From Okeania sp. SIO1I7 (lineage in GTDB: Bacteria; Cyanobacteriota; Cyanobacteriia; Cyanobacteriales; Microcoleaceae): a stretch of DNA of 54,489 nt. The stretch lies in NCBI GenBank assembly GCA_010672585.1, contig JAAHGF010000039.1, positions 1-54,489 on the forward strand. The letters are read 5' to 3'. A model generated the notes under the pieces. It searched no databases and had not been told where the DNA came from. It was given only the letters and a program-made list of their open reading frames with translations. This document shows, piece by piece, positions 1-10,182 of this stretch. The number at the start of each line of letters is the position of its first letter. Positions within the stretch are counted from its first letter, which is position 1. Made by a program: the position numbers and the translations under genes.

Positions 1-204
1 AAGACCTATTCGAAGTCTGTCAAACTGTTTGAAGGCTGGCATTTACCCAACTGTTGTTGATGATAATTGGCGTACGCTGTGGGCACAACGCCAGCTCTAT
101 GACTAACTAAGTATACCTTTTCTTCAAAAGATACCACTCAGGGGTTCTATAGATATTAGCAGCGATCGCGAATTTCTCCAATCATACCTTAATTCACCAA
201 CGCC
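1..204 (+). mobile_element. 3' end of a multicopy element, inverted copy of the window's right end
   Basis: Bases 1-165 are identical to the reverse complement of 54325-54489. After 14 divergent bases, 180-204 again match 54286-54310. The shared block holds the end of a reading frame (2-106) and stops at AATCATACCTTAATTCACCA plus ACGCC, which looks like the terminal repeat of an insertion sequence. I infer that the sequence ends here because assembly stopped in a repeated element. The IS family is not recognised. Confidence 0.6.
2..106 (+). CDS. C-terminal fragment of a probable transposase (partial)
   Basis: An open frame enters from the window edge and ends at TAA (104-106). It gives 34 residues ending in LWAQRQLYD. 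The same fragment occurs at 54384-54488 in opposite orientation. Being in two identical copies inside a repeated element, it is most likely the end of a transposase, but no catalytic motif is visible and the family cannot be named. Another multicopy protein is possible. Confidence 0.4.
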   Translation, partial: RPIRSLSNCLKAGIYPTVVDDNWRTLWAQRQLYD

Positions 205-602
205 CACACTGGAAAAGCTTACGATTCTACTAAATATAAACGCATTGCTTTGCGTATTGGAGTTGTGAATAACCGTGATTATTATAACTGCTAAATTGAC
301 AAAAAACCACATTTATTTCATTTTGATAACTCATTAATTTATTCTCATATATTTGTCTATTTTTATCTTAAATAATTAAAGTATTACAGCAGTTTTGGAG
401 TTTAGTGAATAGGGAATTTAACGAAGTCAGAAGTCAGAAGGGAATATTGGTTCAAGGCCATAATTTTTTTTATAACTGATTAACTGATTATCCGAACATG
501 ATATTACAGCAGTTTTGGAGTTTAGTGAACAGAGAATAGAAATTAGTATTAAACTGTACCTCACCTTCCTAAAAAATGCTTTCAATAATTGATAATTGAT
601 AA

Positions 603-3832: not shown

Positions 3833-4726
3833 CTAACTTCTGACTTCAAAATACTGCTTCAGCACGGGTAAAAGGGTAAAATTGTTTTCTTGTTTTTCTA
3901 TTAGGGAGCGTCGCTGCAATGATTTAATAATATTCAATAAGTCTGAAGCTGGTATTTGTAAATTATTTAATAAGGTTGAAATAGTTACTGGTTCGGTTGT
4001 GGTTGCTAGGTGAGAGATTACTTGTTTTTCTACTTCTGATAAACGGGAAAGTTGCTGATGTAATAATTCTTTGATGTCTGGGTCTAAAAATAGGGGGTCG
4101 TATTGAAATAATTCTGAGATATTTCCACTGAATAAGTCATTAATTGTTGTGGCAATTATATTTAACCAAGTGGGGTTGCCTTGATAAAAGTCAATTAATT
4201 TTTGCCATTGTTCGTCTATTTGTAAGTCTTGGTCTTTGAGAATTTTTTTAGTTGCTTCTTCGTCTAAACCTTTGAGGTGTAATGAGCGAATGGATGTATT
4301 TTTACTTGTACTAATTTCTCTGAGTTTTTCTCTACTAATTATTAGGCAACAACTTTGATGGGAGAGTTGGGCGATAAGTTGGAAAAATTGGCTGTAGTTT
4401 TTATGTTCTGGACTGTAATGACTTGCTAGTTTGCCACTACTAAATATTGTTTGGATGTCATCTAATATTATGAGGCAGCGGTGCTTTCTCAAATTTTCTA
4501 AAAGATGGGAGTTTTCTGAAGTTTCGAGAGTGGAATTTTGGTTGGAGATAAATTGAATGAGTCGGGTTTGAATTGTTTTGAGTGGTGGGGAGTCTCGCAG
4601 ACTTTGCCAAATTATATAGTCGAATTTATTTTGAATATTTTTGATGAGTTGAAGAGCTAATGTTGTTTTGCCAATGCCATTCATTCCGTGAAGCATCACT
4701 ATTTTTTTTGTTCTTGGAGAATCCAT
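3833..4726 (-). CDS. NB-ARC (STAND) ATPase core, C-terminal part of a frameshifted gene
   Basis: This frame carries the nucleotide-binding core of a STAND signalling ATPase: a P-loop GMNGIGKTTLA near residues 14-24, a Walker B LIILDDI near 84-90, LIISRE (about 127-132) like the NB-ARC sensor, and a winged-helix region to about 295. STAND proteins normally act as ATP-driven switches with an N-terminal adaptor and C-terminal repeats. Here the adaptor is in a second overlapping frame (4699-5208) and the C-terminal repeats are missing: the protein ends FEVRS, encoded by GAAGTCAGAAGTTAG, which is heptamer repeat DNA. The real protein is probably a fusion of both frames. The ATG at 4726 is only where this frame opens, inside the adaptor-NB-ARC linker. 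Likely nonfunctional or dependent on slippage. Confidence 0.75.
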   Translation of the reverse strand: MDSPRTKKIVMLHGMNGIGKTTLALQLIKNIQNKFDYIIWQSLRDSPPLKTIQTRLIQFISNQNSTLETSENSHLLENLRKHRCLIILDDIQTIFSSGKLASHYSPEHKNYSQFFQLIAQLSHQSCCLIISREKLREISTSKNTSIRSLHLKGLDEEATKKILKDQDLQIDEQWQKLIDFYQGNPTWLNIIATTINDLFSGNISELFQYDPLFLDPDIKELLHQQLSRLSEVEKQVISHLATTTEPVTISTLLNNLQIPASDLLNIIKSLQRRSLIEKQENNFTLLPVLKQYFEVRS

Positions 4727-5208
4727 TTTTTGAGGGTTTTTATTTCCTGGGTTCTACCATAGAATTTTTTATAGTCTGGTGCATCTGAGAGGTCTATTTT
4801 TGGTCGAGGAATAGTCTGGGGTTTGTTGATATTTGGTTGAGTCAAATTTTCAGGGTTTATAGTTTCTGATGAGGTGGAAGTTTCAGGGCAAAAATTTATA
4901 TTGTTAATTCCTATAAAGTCTTTTTCTACATTTCCAGATGAACCTATAGAAAACTGCCATCTATTAAATGTAGTGCGTAGATTAGATTTATTTACTTGTT
5001 CACCGAAAGTCTCTGAAAAAGTTTTCCATAATTCTGAAGCAACATCTCTGACATGACCATTAGTGCATTGAAATTCTTGAGCAATTTCGGAATATTTTTT
5101 ACCTTGAAAAGTACCTCGTAATATTACTTGTTGTAGGTCATCTAAATGTTTTCCTGTTTGATTAAATATGAGATGGTCAGCTAAATTTAATATTTCTTGT
5201 ATATCCAT
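4699..5208 (-). CDS. N-terminal HTH-like (vMAP-type) adaptor of a frameshifted STAND ATPase
   Basis: Residues 1-85 match the N-terminal helical domain common on cyanobacterial NB-ARC proteins (annotated vMAP): NQTGKHLDDLQQVILRGTFQ, then YSEIAQEFQCTNGHVRDVAS, which reads like a helix-turn-helix. A linker leads to LSDAPDYKKFYGRTQEIKTL, the usual run-in to the NB-ARC P-loop. The frame then stops at QEQKK. The stop follows a run of eight A; one more A would give KKIVMLHGMNGIGKT and join it to the frame at 3833-4726. Either the indel inactivates the gene, or transcriptional slippage on the A run restores it, or it is a sequencing error. The start ATG at 5208 has no obvious ribosome binding site. 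Confidence 0.75.
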   Translation of the reverse strand: MDIQEILNLADHLIFNQTGKHLDDLQQVILRGTFQGKKYSEIAQEFQCTNGHVRDVASELWKTFSETFGEQVNKSNLRTTFNRWQFSIGSSGNVEKDFIGINNINFCPETSTSSETINPENLTQPNINKPQTIPRPKIDLSDAPDYKKFYGRTQEIKTLKKWILQEQKK

Positions 5209-5403: not shown

Positions 5404-5943
5404 ATGACTGAAGAATCAGAGCTAGTTCAATTAATTCTAGAGAATTTTTCTGAGATTCTGAGATATTTACAGCAACAATATGATGAGTTACCTCCCGAAC
5501 TGAAAAAGGTCGTTGAAAGTATACCTGATGTTTTAAGTGACGTTGAAGCAGATAGTGAACTTATTAACAAACGGGAAGTTTATGAAATTATTAGCAAATT
5601 TCTGCAAGAAAACTTAAATGAAGAACTACCTTTATGTATAGATGCTACCCATATTATTTGCCGGGAAGATGACCCAAGGTTATTACAAGAAAGAACTGGA
5701 AATGCAAAAAAAATTGCTGAGGATGCCAAAGAATTAATTGTGACTATTAAAGTGCATTACGAGCTATTAAAAAATCTCACATATAATCGGAGAACTGAAA
5801 TTTTTTATAAGAAAAAAAATCAACCAGCAGTAAAAAAAGTAGAAGAGAAATTAGATTGGGATAGAGCACCTAATGATGTACGTTCAGGATATTTAATTGA
5901 AGGGAAAAAAATATCAACTTTTAAACTTTATCCAAAGGAGTAA
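5404..5943 (+). CDS. Small soluble protein with shared C-terminal WDxxPxDVR motif (1st of three)
   Basis: The product is 179 residues, acidic and mostly helical by composition, with no membrane segment or signal peptide. I recognise no family. Near residues 152-163 it carries LDWDRAPNDVRSGYL, a motif that recurs near the C-terminus of the next two genes and, weaker, of the AAA ATPase at 7372-8427. It lies 195 bases from the divergent STAND gene and 6 bases before the next gene, whose ribosome binding site (AAAGGAG, 5934-5940) is inside this gene. The three genes therefore look like one operon. A role as subunit or client of the AAA protein is inference. Confidence 0.75.
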   Translation: MTEESELVQLILENFSEILRYLQQQYDELPPELKKVVESIPDVLSDVEADSELINKREVYEIISKFLQENLNEELPLCIDATHIICREDDPRLLQERTGNAKKIAEDAKELIVTIKVHYELLKNLTYNRRTEIFYKKKNQPAVKKVEEKLDWDRAPNDVRSGYLIEGKKISTFKLYPKE

Positions 5944-5949
5944 AAAATT

Positions 5950-6438
5950 ATGCCAATTCCAACATTTATATGGGCTATAGCAGGTATTTTAGGAGGTGGA
6001 GTAGCCTTAGCATTAATATTTTGGAATCAAATTTTAGAGTGGGCACAGTATAATCTTTTTCCCTGGATTCAAAATAATATTCCGTCAATTGAAAGTCAAG
6101 TAAGAGAAGCATTTAGTGCTGTAGATAATGTTGCTACTTCTACCCGCTATCTTATCCGTAAAGCTTGGAAAAAGTTGCGTGAATATTTGCTAAAGCAAGT
6201 AGTAAAACTAGAGCGACAATCATCAGGTAAATGGAAAATGCAAGTCACATCTTGGGTTATTAAAAATCTTCTTGAACCAGAAAAGGTTTCAGAAGTAGTT
6301 ACAGAAAAAGATGTAGATTGGGAAGACCTACCTCCAGATGTCCGTGCAGAGTGGTTAAAACTAGAGAAAAGTAAGGCTGAAATTGATGTAACTGAGTATC
6401 GCGATCAGCAAATTGATGAAATGGATATGTCTGCTTAG
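5950..6438 (+). CDS. Single-span membrane protein with WExLPPDVR motif (2nd of three)
   Basis: The product is 162 residues. A hydrophobic segment near 7-27 (IWAIAGILGGGVALALIFW) should be a membrane anchor. A basic helical middle follows (about 55-105). Near 122-135 sits DVDWEDLPPDVRAEWLKLE, the clearest copy of the motif shared with its neighbours. The start is supported by AAAGGAG at 5934-5940, nine bases upstream. The tail after the motif is acidic. There is no named family, and function is unknown. It is translated directly after the gene at 5404 and 49 bases before the gene at 6488. Confidence 0.75.
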   Translation: MPIPTFIWAIAGILGGGVALALIFWNQILEWAQYNLFPWIQNNIPSIESQVREAFSAVDNVATSTRYLIRKAWKKLREYLLKQVVKLERQSSGKWKMQVTSWVIKNLLEPEKVSEVVTEKDVDWEDLPPDVRAEWLKLEKSKAEIDVTEYRDQQIDEMDMSA

Positions 6439-6487
6439 TCAAATAGTATTTTTAACTAAAAAAGTCTGACTATTCAGGATAAAAAAA

Positions 6488-6934
6488 ATGGATAATATTA
6501 CAAATGTTTTGCTTTCTATTTCTGGAATTATAGGTTTAGGTTCTGGAGCATTTTATTTTTTAAGCAAGCAGAATGAAACAGAAACTCGCAGCAATATTGA
6601 TAGATGGTTTGAGGAAAGATTAGCAATTTCATTAGCAGAAAAATTAGACGAATCTGCTGAAGAAATTTTAGCAACGCTTCAAGGTACATCAAATTCTATA
6701 ATTGCCGATAAAATTCGTGAAATAATTGATTCTGCTAGGTTAACTTTTACAAGAGAAAAATCTATTGATGATATAGAGATTCGTCTAAGTGTAGATTACA
6801 TTAATGGTCAATCTTTATCGGTAGCTACTAACTGGAACTGGGATGAATTACCAGGAATAATTAGGTCTGAATTTATCAAAAGTGATAGTAATACTTTGAG
6901 TCGCCCGTGGTATTTTCCCTGGGATAACCAATAA
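6488..6934 (+). CDS. Single-span membrane protein with WDELPxxxR motif (3rd of three)
   Basis: The product is 148 residues with a probable N-terminal anchor at about 5-25 (VLLSISGIIGLGSGAFYFL) and a helical acidic middle. Near 116-129 it carries WNWDELPGIIRSEF, aligned with the motifs of the two preceding genes. It has the same plan as the gene at 5950: short anchor, helical body, motif near the end. This suggests duplication within the operon, although the bodies are too diverged to align by eye. The ribosome binding site is weak (CAGGA). The next gene in the same direction, the AAA ATPase, begins 437 bases downstream after a repeat-bearing spacer. Confidence 0.7.
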   Translation: MDNITNVLLSISGIIGLGSGAFYFLSKQNETETRSNIDRWFEERLAISLAEKLDESAEEILATLQGTSNSIIADKIREIIDSARLTFTREKSIDDIEIRLSVDYINGQSLSVATNWNWDELPGIIRSEFIKSDSNTLSRPWYFPWDNQ

Positions 6935-7371
6935 ATATTATCTCATTAATCCTATATATCAATTCTCATAAAGAGTGATGTATTAATTTCTAGGTTTGAG
7001 GTAACAGAAAACAGGAAAGATAACGAAGTCAGAAGTCAGAAGTCAGAAGTAATTTTTATAACGGCGTGAGCAACTCTCCAAAAATATTGCACCTTAAAAG
7101 GCAGGGTTTTAGACCTACATTATTTTGATAAAAATTGGCAGATAAAATTTAGTAAAGTAATGAAGATTGCTTCGTCGTTCCTCCTCGCAATGACATTTTA
7201 CCTTAATTAAACTTACTAGACTGACACAATGGGGGGAGGGACGGGTTTATCTAAATTTAATGTTGAGCAAGATGAATTTAATGTGGAACCCGCCTCTACT
7301 ATTCCAACATTTTAGGCGTGTCATGCCACTACTTATATTTATATTTTTAATTAACTAAGGAGAATTAATTT
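6935..7371. other. Spacer with heptamer and dispersed repeat
   Basis: No gene is seen. AGTCAGA heptamers lie at about 7024-7050. The segment 7076-7134 (CCAAAAATATTGCACCTTAA and onward through GGGTTTTAGACC) recurs almost exactly near 28400-28450. AAGGAG at 7357-7362 serves the next gene. Confidence 0.6.
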
Positions 7372-8427
7372 ATGCCTACAGGATGGGAAAGAGTAATAAA
7401 TAGAGAAGAAACAAAAAATACAAATTCAAACAAACCTTCCGAACAAACTCCCGCTAATAACTCCTCTGATAAAACAACTGAAATAAACAGAATGGAAATG
7501 TTTATTCCAGAAGAACCTCAGAAAAGTTTAAAAAATCTAATAGTTCCCTCAACTGTCAAAAATAGAATTAATACAGCACTGAATAGAATTAAATATCACG
7601 ATATTTTATATGACCAATGGAACTTAAAAAGTATTGACCCCCGTGGTAAGCGTACCGCAATTAACTTATTTGGACTACCAGGTACAGGTAAAACCTTTTG
7701 TGCAGAAGCGATCGCTCACTTTTTAGGCAAGAAAATTATCAAAGTTAACTATGCAGAAATTGAGTCTAAATATGTGGGTGAAACGCCAAAAAATATTACG
7801 GCAGCTTTTAACAAAGCGAAAGAAACTGACTCAGTTTTATTCTTTGATGAAGCTGACTCTATCCTGGGAAAAAGATTAACTAATGTCACTCAAAGTTCCG
7901 ACCATGGAGTTAATGTTAGTCGTTCTGTAATGTTACTTCAATTAGATAAATTTGATGGAGTTGTAATTTTTGCCACTAACCTCGCCAAGAATTATGATGG
8001 TGCATTTGTGCGCCGAATTTTGGCACATATTGAATTTGAATTACCAGACAAAGAATGTCGCATTAAACTATGGGAATATCTACTACCAAAAGAAGTACCA
8101 ATTACAGAAGATGTTAATCCAGAATGGTTAGCAAATGAATCAGAAGAACTTGCCGGAGGTGATATTTTAAATGTTGTAATTGCAGCAGCAAGTCGAGCAG
8201 TGATGAGAGAAGGAAAAGCTCAAAAAGTTTCCCCTTTTGACTTAGCTGAAGAAATCAAATTTGTACGAGAAGCAAAGACAAAAATTGGTTCTCCTCACTA
8301 TCAAACTAATCAACAAAAACCCAAAATTAAGGAGACAATAATAGAACCAGATAATTTATCTCCAGAACTTCGCGATCGCTACGATAAAGCTATTTCTGAA
8401 ATAGATAAATCTGATTCAAGAATTTAG
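7372..8427 (+). CDS. AAA-family ATPase
   Basis: The protein has 351 residues. An N-terminal low-complexity stretch (1-50) is followed by a classic AAA module: Walker A GLPGTGKT at 101-108, a pore-loop-like segment ESKYVGETPKN at about 130-140, Walker B LFFDEAD at about 157-163, sensor 1 FATN near 200, and paired arginines VRRI at about 213-216 as candidate arginine fingers. The small helical lid carries LAGGDILNVV. Such ATPases form rings that pull on or remodel proteins. Near 326-338 the tail EPDNLSPELRDRYDKA resembles the motif of the three upstream small proteins. The start is supported by AAGGAG nine bases upstream. The last codons and the stop lie at the start of an AGAATTT heptamer run (8419-8452). 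Confidence 0.88.
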   Translation: MPTGWERVINREETKNTNSNKPSEQTPANNSSDKTTEINRMEMFIPEEPQKSLKNLIVPSTVKNRINTALNRIKYHDILYDQWNLKSIDPRGKRTAINLFGLPGTGKTFCAEAIAHFLGKKIIKVNYAEIESKYVGETPKNITAAFNKAKETDSVLFFDEADSILGKRLTNVTQSSDHGVNVSRSVMLLQLDKFDGVVIFATNLAKNYDGAFVRRILAHIEFELPDKECRIKLWEYLLPKEVPITEDVNPEWLANESEELAGGDILNVVIAAASRAVMREGKAQKVSPFDLAEEIKFVREAKTKIGSPHYQTNQQKPKIKETIIEPDNLSPELRDRYDKAISEIDKSDSRI

Positions 8428-8745: not shown

Positions 8746-10182
8746 TCAATAACTTCTTCCTTCTTCCTTCTTCCTTCTTCCTTCAAATAATTCTTGTTGT
8801 AAACGATAGATAATTGTATCCGGTTCAACCTGATTTAAAATATCCTGAATAACGATATCTTGTCCTAATGGTCCCCAAGTACAACCCTTTTCCAAATAAA
8901 CCTTAGTCGCTCTACCAATAGCATAAATTCCATAAGCTGCAATAGAAGCTTGAGTAATAGCAACTCCTGCATAAGAAGTAACACCAACCTTTCCTAAACC
9001 TAATAATAAACTACTACCCAACTCCCCTAATAACATACCACTTTCACTGAATATAATTACTTTCCAAAGTTTACCTGCTTCATAGCTAGTCATGGGCAAA
9101 TTATAGAGACGAGACAAAGAACGAATTAAAGCTAAATCTATTACAGTAGTTCCCATCACATCAATAATAGCAACAGGATTAATAGCAACAGCTAAAGCTT
9201 TATACTTAGCAAAATCCCAGATTAAATCATCAGCTTCATCTTGTTTAATCTTAACAGTTTTATGAGCAATAGTTACCTCAGCTTCTCTTGCTTGTACTAA
9301 CGCATTTAACGCTAAAAGTGACCGCCCTTCCCGCTCTAAAATAGTAATTATTTTTTGTTTCAAAGGATCTATTTGAGGCGATGGAGTTTCCCATTCGTGA
9401 GTCACATTACCATCAGGCCATTCAATTCTTACAGGTATAGGAGCTGGTTCTGCTGAGACCATTACTACTTCTGTAGGAGGATAAATATCTTCTAATTCTT
9501 CTGATTTATCCACAACAATATTTTGCAAATTTTGATAAATATCTTCTCGTTCCGCTTCTGGATATAAATCAATTTTATTAAACACTAAAATTAGCGGTTT
9601 TTTAGCCTTCCTTAATTCACGCAAAGCATCATATTCAGTGCGAGTAAGATCCCCAGAAACAACAAATAGAATTAAATCTGCTTTGCGAGTAACTTCCTTA
9701 GCCATTTCTCCACGAACTTGACCTGCTACTTCATCTAATCCAGGAGTATCTATTAAATCTATTTTTGCTTTCTCTTGTTGATGAGAATTAATAAAAATAT
9801 TAGGTGTCCATCTAATAGCACGAGGCCATTGAGTCACGCCATTTAGAGGACCTGTTTCTAATATTTTTTCACTTAATAAAGCATTTAAAACTGCTGATTT
9901 ACCACGACTTACAAGACCAAAAACTGCTATTTGGATTACTCCTTGGTCTAGCTTATCAATGTTGGATTTTAATAAATCTAATTGAGTTTTTAAGGAGGAT
10001 GAAAATTCAGAAGTTTTTGTTTTTTGTGCCGTATTTTGCAAAGCAGAGTATCTATTTAGAGCTTTTCGTAAACTTGCTCTAGCACGTTTCCAATGTTGTT
10101 TACCTTGTTTTTGGTAACTTTCTGGAGATTGAGAATATTCTGTCACTATTTCTGAGTAAATATCTGAGTTAGTCAAGGTCAT
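8746..10182 (-). CDS. Era/dynamin-like GTPase with DUF697-type C-terminal region
   Basis: The product is 478 residues: a helical N-terminal 80, then a TRAFAC GTPase with G1 GLVSRGKS (89-96), G3 DTPGLDEV (145-152), G4 NKID (202-205) and G5-like SAE (about 252-254). Residues about 330-450 carry the AINPVAIIDVMGTTVIDLAL region and glycine-rich hydrophobic helices typical of DUF697 GTPases, which probably associate with membranes. The last residues EGRRKKEEGRSY are encoded by CTTCCTT heptamers, so the natural tail seems replaced by repeat DNA. The start is also odd: the ATG and next base triplet lie at the end of a (CTGATAA)n repeat whose consensus includes CTGAAATGACC. There is no ribosome binding site. 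It lies tail to tail with the AAA ATPase. Its cellular role is unknown. Confidence 0.85.
   Translation of the reverse strand: MTLTNSDIYSEIVTEYSQSPESYQKQGKQHWKRARASLRKALNRYSALQNTAQKTKTSEFSSSLKTQLDLLKSNIDKLDQGVIQIAVFGLVSRGKSAVLNALLSEKILETGPLNGVTQWPRAIRWTPNIFINSHQQEKAKIDLIDTPGLDEVAGQVRGEMAKEVTRKADLILFVVSGDLTRTEYDALRELRKAKKPLILVFNKIDLYPEAEREDIYQNLQNIVVDKSEELEDIYPPTEVVMVSAEPAPIPVRIEWPDGNVTHEWETPSPQIDPLKQKIITILEREGRSLLALNALVQAREAEVTIAHKTVKIKQDEADDLIWDFAKYKALAVAINPVAIIDVMGTTVIDLALIRSLSRLYNLPMTSYEAGKLWKVIIFSESGMLLGELGSSLLLGLGKVGVTSYAGVAITQASIAAYGIYAIGRATKVYLEKGCTWGPLGQDIVIQDILNQVEPDTIIYRLQQELFEGRRKKEEGRSY

Follow-up and report, generated by a model that had tools for sequence, protein, structure and literature searches.

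The operon and its products

A 54,489-nucleotide stretch of Okeania sp. SIO1I7 (contig JAAHGF010000039.1), here called the window, contains four adjacent forward-strand genes, three for small proteins (P1, P2, and P3) and one for an AAA ATPase (AAA), for which a preliminary description had claimed one common motif near the C-terminal ends; both the reading frames and the motif codons were confirmed where that description had placed them. P1 (5404 to 5943, 179 residues) lacks any segment as hydrophobic as a typical membrane helix; it is predicted to comprise a helical N-terminal part and a C-terminal beta-beta-beta-alpha-beta domain (residues 112 to 176), and its motif, WDRAPNDVRSGY, lies at 5857 to 5892. 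P2 (5950 to 6438, 162 residues) has a single N-terminal hydrophobic helix, a helical middle, and a predicted C-terminal beta-beta-beta-alpha-beta(-alpha) domain (residues 80 to 160), with the motif WEDLPPDVRAEW at 6319 to 6354. P3 (6488 to 6934, 148 residues) also begins with a single hydrophobic helix; its C-terminal region appears, from profile comparison, to match the P1/P2 domain and carries WDELPGIIRSEF at 6839 to 6874. The gap between P3 and AAA (6935 to 7371) is the site at which orthologous operons hold a fourth small gene, P4. The AAA gene (7372 to 8427, 351 residues; Pfam AAA E value of 2.6e-26) encodes the motif PDNLSPELRDRY at 8347 to 8382, 14 residues short of the C terminus, in a tail that is weak when taken alone and clear in some orthologues.

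None of P1 to P4 could be credibly assigned to a Pfam or NCBIfam family. For the window's P1, P2, and P3, PADLOC returned no match, Pfam and NCBIfam returned none close to a cut-off, and a member-by-member Pfam scan of the P1 (13 members), P2 (15), P3 (9), and P4 (9) families returned nothing below an E value of 0.001, the best values (0.0023, 0.0012, 0.0038, and 0.0023, respectively) each coming mostly from one member. The Pfam family Aurora-A_bind was matched in five of the nine P3 proteins, that of the window reaching 14.2 bits against a cut-off of 21, and the best NCBIfam match of the P4 family had an E value of only 0.0056.

One element shared by three small proteins

The element can be written W[DE]xLPx[DE]VRxx[FWY], and it is kept near the ends of P1, P2, and P3 in homologues that are about 30% identical overall. 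In the alignments, its proline is conserved in 11 of 12 P1, 15 of 15 P2, and 9 of 9 P3 rows, its arginine in 9, 14, and 9 of these rows, and its tryptophan in 11, 8, and 9. Conservation was ranked after the removal of rows more than 70% identical to a kept row, which left 6 of 12 rows for P1, 12 of 15 for P2, 4 of 9 for P3, and 5 of 14 for AAA; the motif was the most conserved 12-residue stretch of P3 (rank 1 of 137) and held rank 12 of 151 in P2 and rank 25 of 168 in P1.

Two lines of evidence establish that the element is common to the three small proteins beyond chance. A tail profile built from two of the small families was used to seek the third among 3,812 stop-to-stop open reading frames, many of them duplicates of one locus, at an E value of 0.1 or below: all 12 P1 rows (8e-8 to 0.04), 13 of 15 P2 rows (7e-10 to 0.07; those of loci L028 and L032 were missed), and all 9 P3 rows (5e-5 to 0.007) were recovered. 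The remaining matches belonged to AAA genes (L028, L029, L030, L032, and L034), to a broken duplicate of P2 in L020, and to additional small genes of L034. The window's own genome (9.48 Mb) was then scanned with a profile of 15 tails that excluded the window, its close relatives (L020 to L024 and L031), and every AAA protein; below an E value of 1 only P2 (8.7e-7), P1 (2.9e-4), and P3 (5.4e-4) were found, and the next match stood at 1.1. The element is rare in this genome. When AAA and window tails were added to the profile, only the four genes fell below an E value of 1, a result that is partly circular in that the profile contained three of the four window tails, so that the independent 15-tail scan is the test to rely on.

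The similarity of P1, P2, and P3 is not confined to the element. Profile-profile comparison gave E values, each valid for one comparison, of 8.9e-9 for P1 and P2, 3.3e-7 for P1 and P3, and 7.7e-7 for P2 and P3, and the matched region reaches upstream of the motif. AlphaFold2 models of P1 (mean pLDDT of 82.7, 13 sequences) and P2 (71.5, 15 sequences) place their C-terminal elements in the same order, with strands at 112 to 121, 126 to 137, and 140 to 151, a helix at 157 to 166, and a strand at 170 to 176 in P1, and strands at 80 to 91, 94 to 104, and 113 to 123, a helix at 129 to 138, a strand at 142 to 146, and a helix at 148 to 160 in P2. In both models, the motif spans the junction between the third strand and the helix, the beta3-alpha1 corner. 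The proposal that the bodies of these proteins are unlike was therefore only partly right, and the motif would mark a small C-terminal domain of beta-beta-beta-alpha-beta type that P1, P2, and P3 have in common and that has diverged in P4, a fold modeled for P1 and P2 only. Foldseek comparison of the two models with the PDB gave no match at an E value of 0.001 or below.

An N-terminal hydrophobic stretch, one per protein, occurs in all full-length P2, P3, and P4 rows and in none of the 12 P1 rows: the best 19-residue Kyte-Doolittle mean is 1.5 to 3.1 in the former and at most 1.04 in the latter. The truncated P2 of L025 has no such stretch.

The AAA ATPase and its tail

AAA is a classical AAA ATPase (Pfam PF00004, 93.1 bits against a cut-off of 21.2) that retains, as judged by eye, Walker A, Walker B, an aromatic pore loop (Tyr134-Val-Gly), and paired arginines at 214 and 215. 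Its best match among NCBIfam models is IetA, followed by CdvC, and its best match among PDB chains is CDC48/p97. The N terminus begins MP..W in all 13 cyanobacterial alignment rows (window positions 7372 to 7386), perhaps as a second contact site.

Only the strand-plus-helix part of the shared domain has a counterpart in the AAA tail; the rest is lacking there. Profiles of P2 (E value of 5.9e-4) and of a wider P4 family, A22 (5.0e-4), match AAA exactly at this tail, and the P1-AAA profile comparison gave 0.032. The tail is clear in orthologues from Scytonema, Nostoc, and Lujinxingiaceae, weak in the window, and missing in some others. Of the 14 aligned AAA proteins, 13 (all but that of L013) end in a tail matching the motif columns; the alignment leaves out L035, whose C-terminal part is lost, and L012/L031 is cut by a contig end. 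Each tail was scored against 1,000 shuffles of itself: six of the 14 (L026, L028, L029, L030, L032, and L034) were unmatched by any shuffle, those of L023, L027, and L021 were reached by 14 to 42, those of the window and L020 by 51 each, and those of L013, L024, and L022 were not significant (195, 373, and 517). Among eight other AAA genes, paralogues and plasmid-borne ones, no tail stood out, the lowest count being 92. The window tail aligns column by column with the significant orthologue tails; it was not picked up by the 15-tail genome scan. A distinct tail is thus confined to some members of the family; it is plain in certain lineages and worn in that of the window, and the window AAA motif is, as far as these alignments indicate, a weak member secured only through its orthologues. 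Its shuffle result excludes its use as strong evidence in its own right.

Two further observations concern AAA genes of other loci: the L024 tail has an eight-residue insertion within the motif, and in L021 (1263 to 2691) a partial second copy of the AAA start precedes the AAA gene.

The fourth small protein and change of the motif in other lineages

P4 is a membrane protein of 109 to 116 residues encoded between P3 and AAA in L012, L013, L015, L028, L029, L030, and L035; a tblastn search with four P4 proteins (E value of 0.01 or below) found no P4 in L020, L022, or L024 and no P4 or remnant of it in the window. P2 and the wider P4 family (A22) match at an E value of 3.7e-10 over most of the length of both. 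The P4 gene of L028 (5656 to 5985) is interrupted by an in-frame stop in the part that encodes the C-terminal region.

L034 has five consecutive genes with the element: P1 (VTLEDLPQAVNEAFL), P2 (VMLDDLPADVQSSFL), P3 (LALDDLPSPVQQAFL), P4 (VAYDDLPDDVQKQL), and AAA (VELSELPEDVRQRAL). There, P1, P2, and P3 have all lost the tryptophan and arginine that they mostly have elsewhere, a joint loss that fits parts read by a common partner. L034 P4 has neither residue, as is also true of cyanobacterial P4, and L034 AAA retains the arginine; tryptophan is absent from every AAA tail. The Streptomyces locus L054, whose P1 and P2 motifs look decayed by eye and whose AAA has no tail, is also consistent with a common partner.

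Distribution and genomic setting of the operon

The operon is sporadic. A P2 search of the order gave matches in 3 of 291 genomes, the window's included; a P3 profile search of the class gave 5 of 388 at an E value of 0.01, of which, besides the window, only G362 is convincing (G292, G388, and G528 are weak, at 0.001 to 0.006); and a P2 profile search over 386 genomes of the phylum gave five at the same threshold, two of them convincing (G000 and G153) and three weak (G012, G154, and G329, at 0.001 to 0.007). The P2 and P3 searches, which were independent of AAA, led to operons in G153, G280, and G362, and in all three the AAA gene adjoins the small genes. The element keeps its near-C-terminal place in homologues and goes with the AAA gene.

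A scan of genome contigs with AAA returned 31 loci, 16 of which (L020 to L035) are at least 52% identical. A P1, P2, or P3 gene lies upstream of AAA in 14 of these 16 (L020, L021, L022, L024 to L032, L034, and L035), and none was seen there in L023 and L033; L025, L027, and L031 are again the contigs of G280, G362, and G153. Loci with small genes and AAA were taken to number 16: the window, L012, L013, L020, L021, L022, L024, L026, L027, L028, L029, L030, L032, L034, L035, and L054. They are sporadic in cyanobacteria and extend to one deltaproteobacterium (L034, genome G831, family Lujinxingiaceae, Bradymonadales) and one Streptomyces plasmid (L054, with P1, P2, AAA, and a CHAT gene). Among 57 genomes of the class of G831, P2 was found only in G831 itself. 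In plasmid searches, P2 and P1 of L035 matched only the Streptomyces record, P2 of L054 matched only itself, and the small protein of a further plasmid locus, L057, matched only itself and that of plasmid locus L056; searches with the L057 protein of phages and of viral contigs gave nothing, and a search of viral contigs with AAA gave at least one distant relative.

Some loci show rearrangement of the small genes. The broken second P2 copy of L020 (4681 to 4872) retains its tail (WDEIPPDVRAEWL), the Pseudanabaena operon L027 (2698 to 3696) has two tandem P2 genes with the motif in both, and in L024 (3437 to 4721) a gene pair that looks transposon-like by eye separates P2 from P3.

Upstream of P1, the window has a helix-turn-helix plus NB-ARC (STAND) gene on the reverse strand (3833 to 5208), which occupies two overlapping reading frames; unlike this split copy, the gene is a single open frame in L012, L020, and L024. 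Within the flanks covered, a STAND gene (NB-ARC or nSTAND1) accompanies the operon in the window, L012, L020, L024, L026, and L035, and L028, L029, L032, L034, and L054 have a CHAT gene, which makes 11 of 16 loci, or 12 with L027, a 7.3-kb Pseudanabaena contig with a gene for effector-associated domain 10 (EAD10; 3 to 512, reverse strand), a transposase, and a phage-type integrase. The integrase (6182 to 7132, reverse strand) and EAD10 genes of this contig may mark a mobile island. No STAND, CHAT, or EAD gene was seen in L030 or in L013, L021, and L022, the flank genes of the last three having been scanned in part; L022 is a 4.7-kb contig, and L013 ends 330 bases past AAA. In G831, the sole CHAT match in 6.2 Mb sits on the contig of the operon. 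On the other side of the operon, an slr1306-like GTPase gene with DUF697 (8746 to 10182, reverse strand) adjoins AAA in the window, and a similar-looking gene was seen by eye beside AAA in L020 and L024.

Interpretation

The end-piece common to P1, P2, and P3, together with the fragment of it on AAA, suggests that these proteins form one uncharacterized membrane-tethered machine, which is probably part of a bacterial immune-type module. We envisage that P2, P3, and P4 are held in the membrane by one N-terminal helix each, with the shared domain in the cytoplasm; anchoring is proposed because every full-length row has a single strongly hydrophobic N-terminal stretch. The shared domains would associate among themselves and with P1, giving a hetero-oligomer, and AAA, where its tail is present, would dock by subunit mimicry through the strand-plus-helix corner and then thread or remodel the assembly. 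Threading is plausible because the Walker motifs, the paired arginines, and the pore loop appear to be kept. The assembly would probably be a threshold switch or a membrane-acting effector of a conflict (immune-type) system, a role proposed because STAND, CHAT, or EAD genes so often adjoin the operon. We regard this connection with conflict systems as probable on two grounds, gene neighbors and sporadic distribution. CHAT proteins are linked to bacterial immunity and programmed death. Parts of one published survey link STAND proteins and effector-associated domains to the same processes (PMC8195603). Taken as a whole, the picture of small, mostly membrane-anchored proteins that hetero-oligomerize through a shared domain, are remodeled by AAA, and serve as a conflict-system switch is one that we put forward tentatively, at a little under even confidence.

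A number of observations weigh against this picture. On the structural side, the models cover P1 and P2 only, as single chains; that of P2 is of middling confidence (mean pLDDT of 71.5, against 50 to 63 for the other four models of it). A narrower P4 set (A13) matches P2 at an E value of 0.0011 and P3 at 0.027, weakly and away from the motif, and the motif of cyanobacterial P4 is degenerate, six of seven tails being indistinguishable from their own shuffles. The three-family tail profile, which reaches the L056 small protein at an E value of 3.3, still fails, with the limit set at 10, to find L034 P1, either P1 or P2 of L054, or the L057 protein. The window AAA tail scores 0.1 bit, a value that 51 of 1,000 shuffles attain, eight of the 14 AAA tails fail to beat all of their shuffles, and the tail is less conserved than most of AAA (rank 211 of 323). 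ATPases without a canonical tail stand beside motif-bearing small proteins in L013 (absent), L035 (lost), and L056 and L057 (not canonical), and L013, where P2 and P3 have the motif, speaks against a strict pairing. The joint loss of tryptophan and arginine in L034 is that of one lineage, and cyanobacterial P2 is without tryptophan in 6 of 14 rows while P1 of the same loci retains it. CHAT genes are common in cyanobacteria (39 matches in G000 and 47 in G832), and their adjacency there is weak evidence.

The element could instead be a linear docking peptide or a degron-like tag for one receptor, such as the AAA ring, the copy on AAA being self-regulating. Its position near the C terminus of P1, P2, P3, and AAA would suit such a peptide, as would the presence in AAA of the strand-helix stretch alone, the only place at which the P2 and P4 profiles match that protein. 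However, in the models of P1 and P2 the motif lies within a folded domain and is followed by a strand, and the similarity of P1, P2, and P3 continues upstream of it. What survives of the docking peptide or assembly tag first proposed is a shared element that unites the proteins of the operon; a short linear peptide does not agree with a predicted strand-to-helix corner of a folded domain, was set back for this reason, and seems to us unlikely, if a serious candidate.

Alternatively, the small proteins may themselves be membrane-acting effectors or toxins that AAA keeps disassembled until a signal arrives from STAND or CHAT, the shared domain serving for oligomerization. Two or three membrane-anchored small proteins per operon, the STAND, CHAT, and EAD neighbors, and the sporadic distribution (two convincing genomes of the 386 of the phylum) all accord with this proposal, whereas no toxin or pore-forming family appeared with a credible score in the family scans, and we consider it rather improbable in this form. 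An ESCRT-like device, in which a Vps4/CdvC-like AAA recycles membrane-bound small helical proteins, draws support from the scores of AAA with IetA and then CdvC in NCBIfam and with CDC48/p97 in the PDB, and from partners that are membrane bound, partly helical, and equipped with a C-terminal element; Pfam, however, finds no MIT domain in AAA and no ESCRT-III family among the partners, one P1 row matching EAP30/Vps36 at an E value of 0.011, and such a device is very unlikely. Separate origins of a common helix-start pattern (LPxxVR) could be entertained for so short a pattern and for a window AAA tail that is not significant by itself, but the element is rare genome-wide, is recovered across families, and occupies the same place in the predicted fold, so that coincidence is largely ruled out for P1 to P3 by the cross-family recovery and the genome scan and is the least probable account overall.

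Four families without a credible entry in the databases covered here are tied by one element to a classical AAA motor in a setting linked to immunity and programmed death. The element is a handle for finding further operons of this kind and would allow a direct test of how an AAA motor recognizes an assembly of which it carries a copy.

Comparison with known systems

IetA is the AAA protein of the IetAS anti-phage pair, the partner of which, IetS, is an adjacent subtilase. It is the best match of AAA in both NCBIfam and PADLOC (102.5 and 117.3 bits), but 102.5 bits is far under the equivalog cut-off of 510 of NCBIfam NF042959. No subtilase is among the matches listed for the window neighbors, those of other loci having been scanned in part, and the window operon and its orthologues have several small membrane partners.

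Vps4 and CdvC are AAA proteins that work with ESCRT-III, and the Vps4 type has an N-terminal MIT domain. The present operon resembles these systems in a classical AAA ATPase related to CdvC (93 bits) and in small membrane-bound partners with a C-terminal element. It differs in that no ESCRT-III relative was found, no MIT domain is among the 15 Pfam families matched by AAA at an E value of 1 or below, and the ATPase itself bears the element.

MoxR-vWA ternary, FtsH-containing, and STAND systems and small adaptor (effector-associated) domains have been described (PMC7159879, PMC8195603). As presented in parts of these sources, the MoxR-vWA and STAND conflict systems are ATPase-based switches of multicellular bacteria, with small adaptor domains repeated across one locus. 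The operon is alike in its STAND neighbors and in the EAD10 gene of L027, but its ATPase is of the classical family, and neither vWA nor MoxR is among the Pfam matches listed for eight window proteins, the listing for the NB-ARC protein covering 25 of its 37 families. The gene set is not described in the portions of those two papers that were available, and a literature search, with subscription papers mostly outside its scope, gave no paper on it.

On a Comamonas plasmid (L056) and a Moraxella osloensis plasmid (L057), an AAA protein 41% and 40% identical, respectively, adjoins a P4-like membrane protein. The motif of the small protein is clear in L056 (1 of 1,000 shuffles) and visible by eye only in L057 (212 of 1,000). 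These plasmids have one motif-bearing small protein, against three or four in the operon, and their AAA tail is not canonical. A second layout of AAA plus small membrane proteins, which have another C-terminal pattern in common (ending ID-EL---H----VIY or alike), was noted on the Planktothrix plasmid L055 (3055 to 6002) and in the window genome at L002 (991 to 2451). A link to the small proteins of L055 and L002, the latter a window genome paralogue, is not claimed, the E values being 0.023 with the P4 set and 0.0025 with P2, at an unrelated place.

The last comparison concerns COMMD proteins, which, according to parts of a published account (PMC10187114), have divergent helical N-terminal domains and a C-terminal domain of three strands plus a helix, are obligate dimers, and assemble into a hetero-decameric ring. 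The P1 model has a similar order of elements after its helical N-terminal part, and six of the best 22 Foldseek rows for P1 are COMMD or CCC complex chains, at E values of 0.18 to 0.61 and TM-scores of at most 0.17, which makes them a lead only. In COMMD proteins the helix of the COMM domain is C-terminal, whereas in the P1 and P2 models a strand comes after it, and no COMM domain was matched by sequence in Pfam (P1 to P4 families) or PDB profile searches; membership of the COMMD family was not adopted, given Foldseek E values of 0.18 or more and no sequence match. The analogy is one of construction: hetero-oligomers, the COMMD ring among them, are put together from several different proteins with one domain in common, and a motor bearing the strand-helix corner of that domain could dock by mimicry. 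Carried to its full extent, the analogy would make the operon an undescribed machine, a COMMD-like ring of three or four mostly membrane-anchored small proteins with an unnamed beta-beta-beta-alpha-beta domain, into which AAA, through its own piece of that domain, inserts itself and which it disassembles, the whole being wired to STAND and CHAT sensors or effectors as an immune switch; as a complete account this is possible and, on balance, doubtful.

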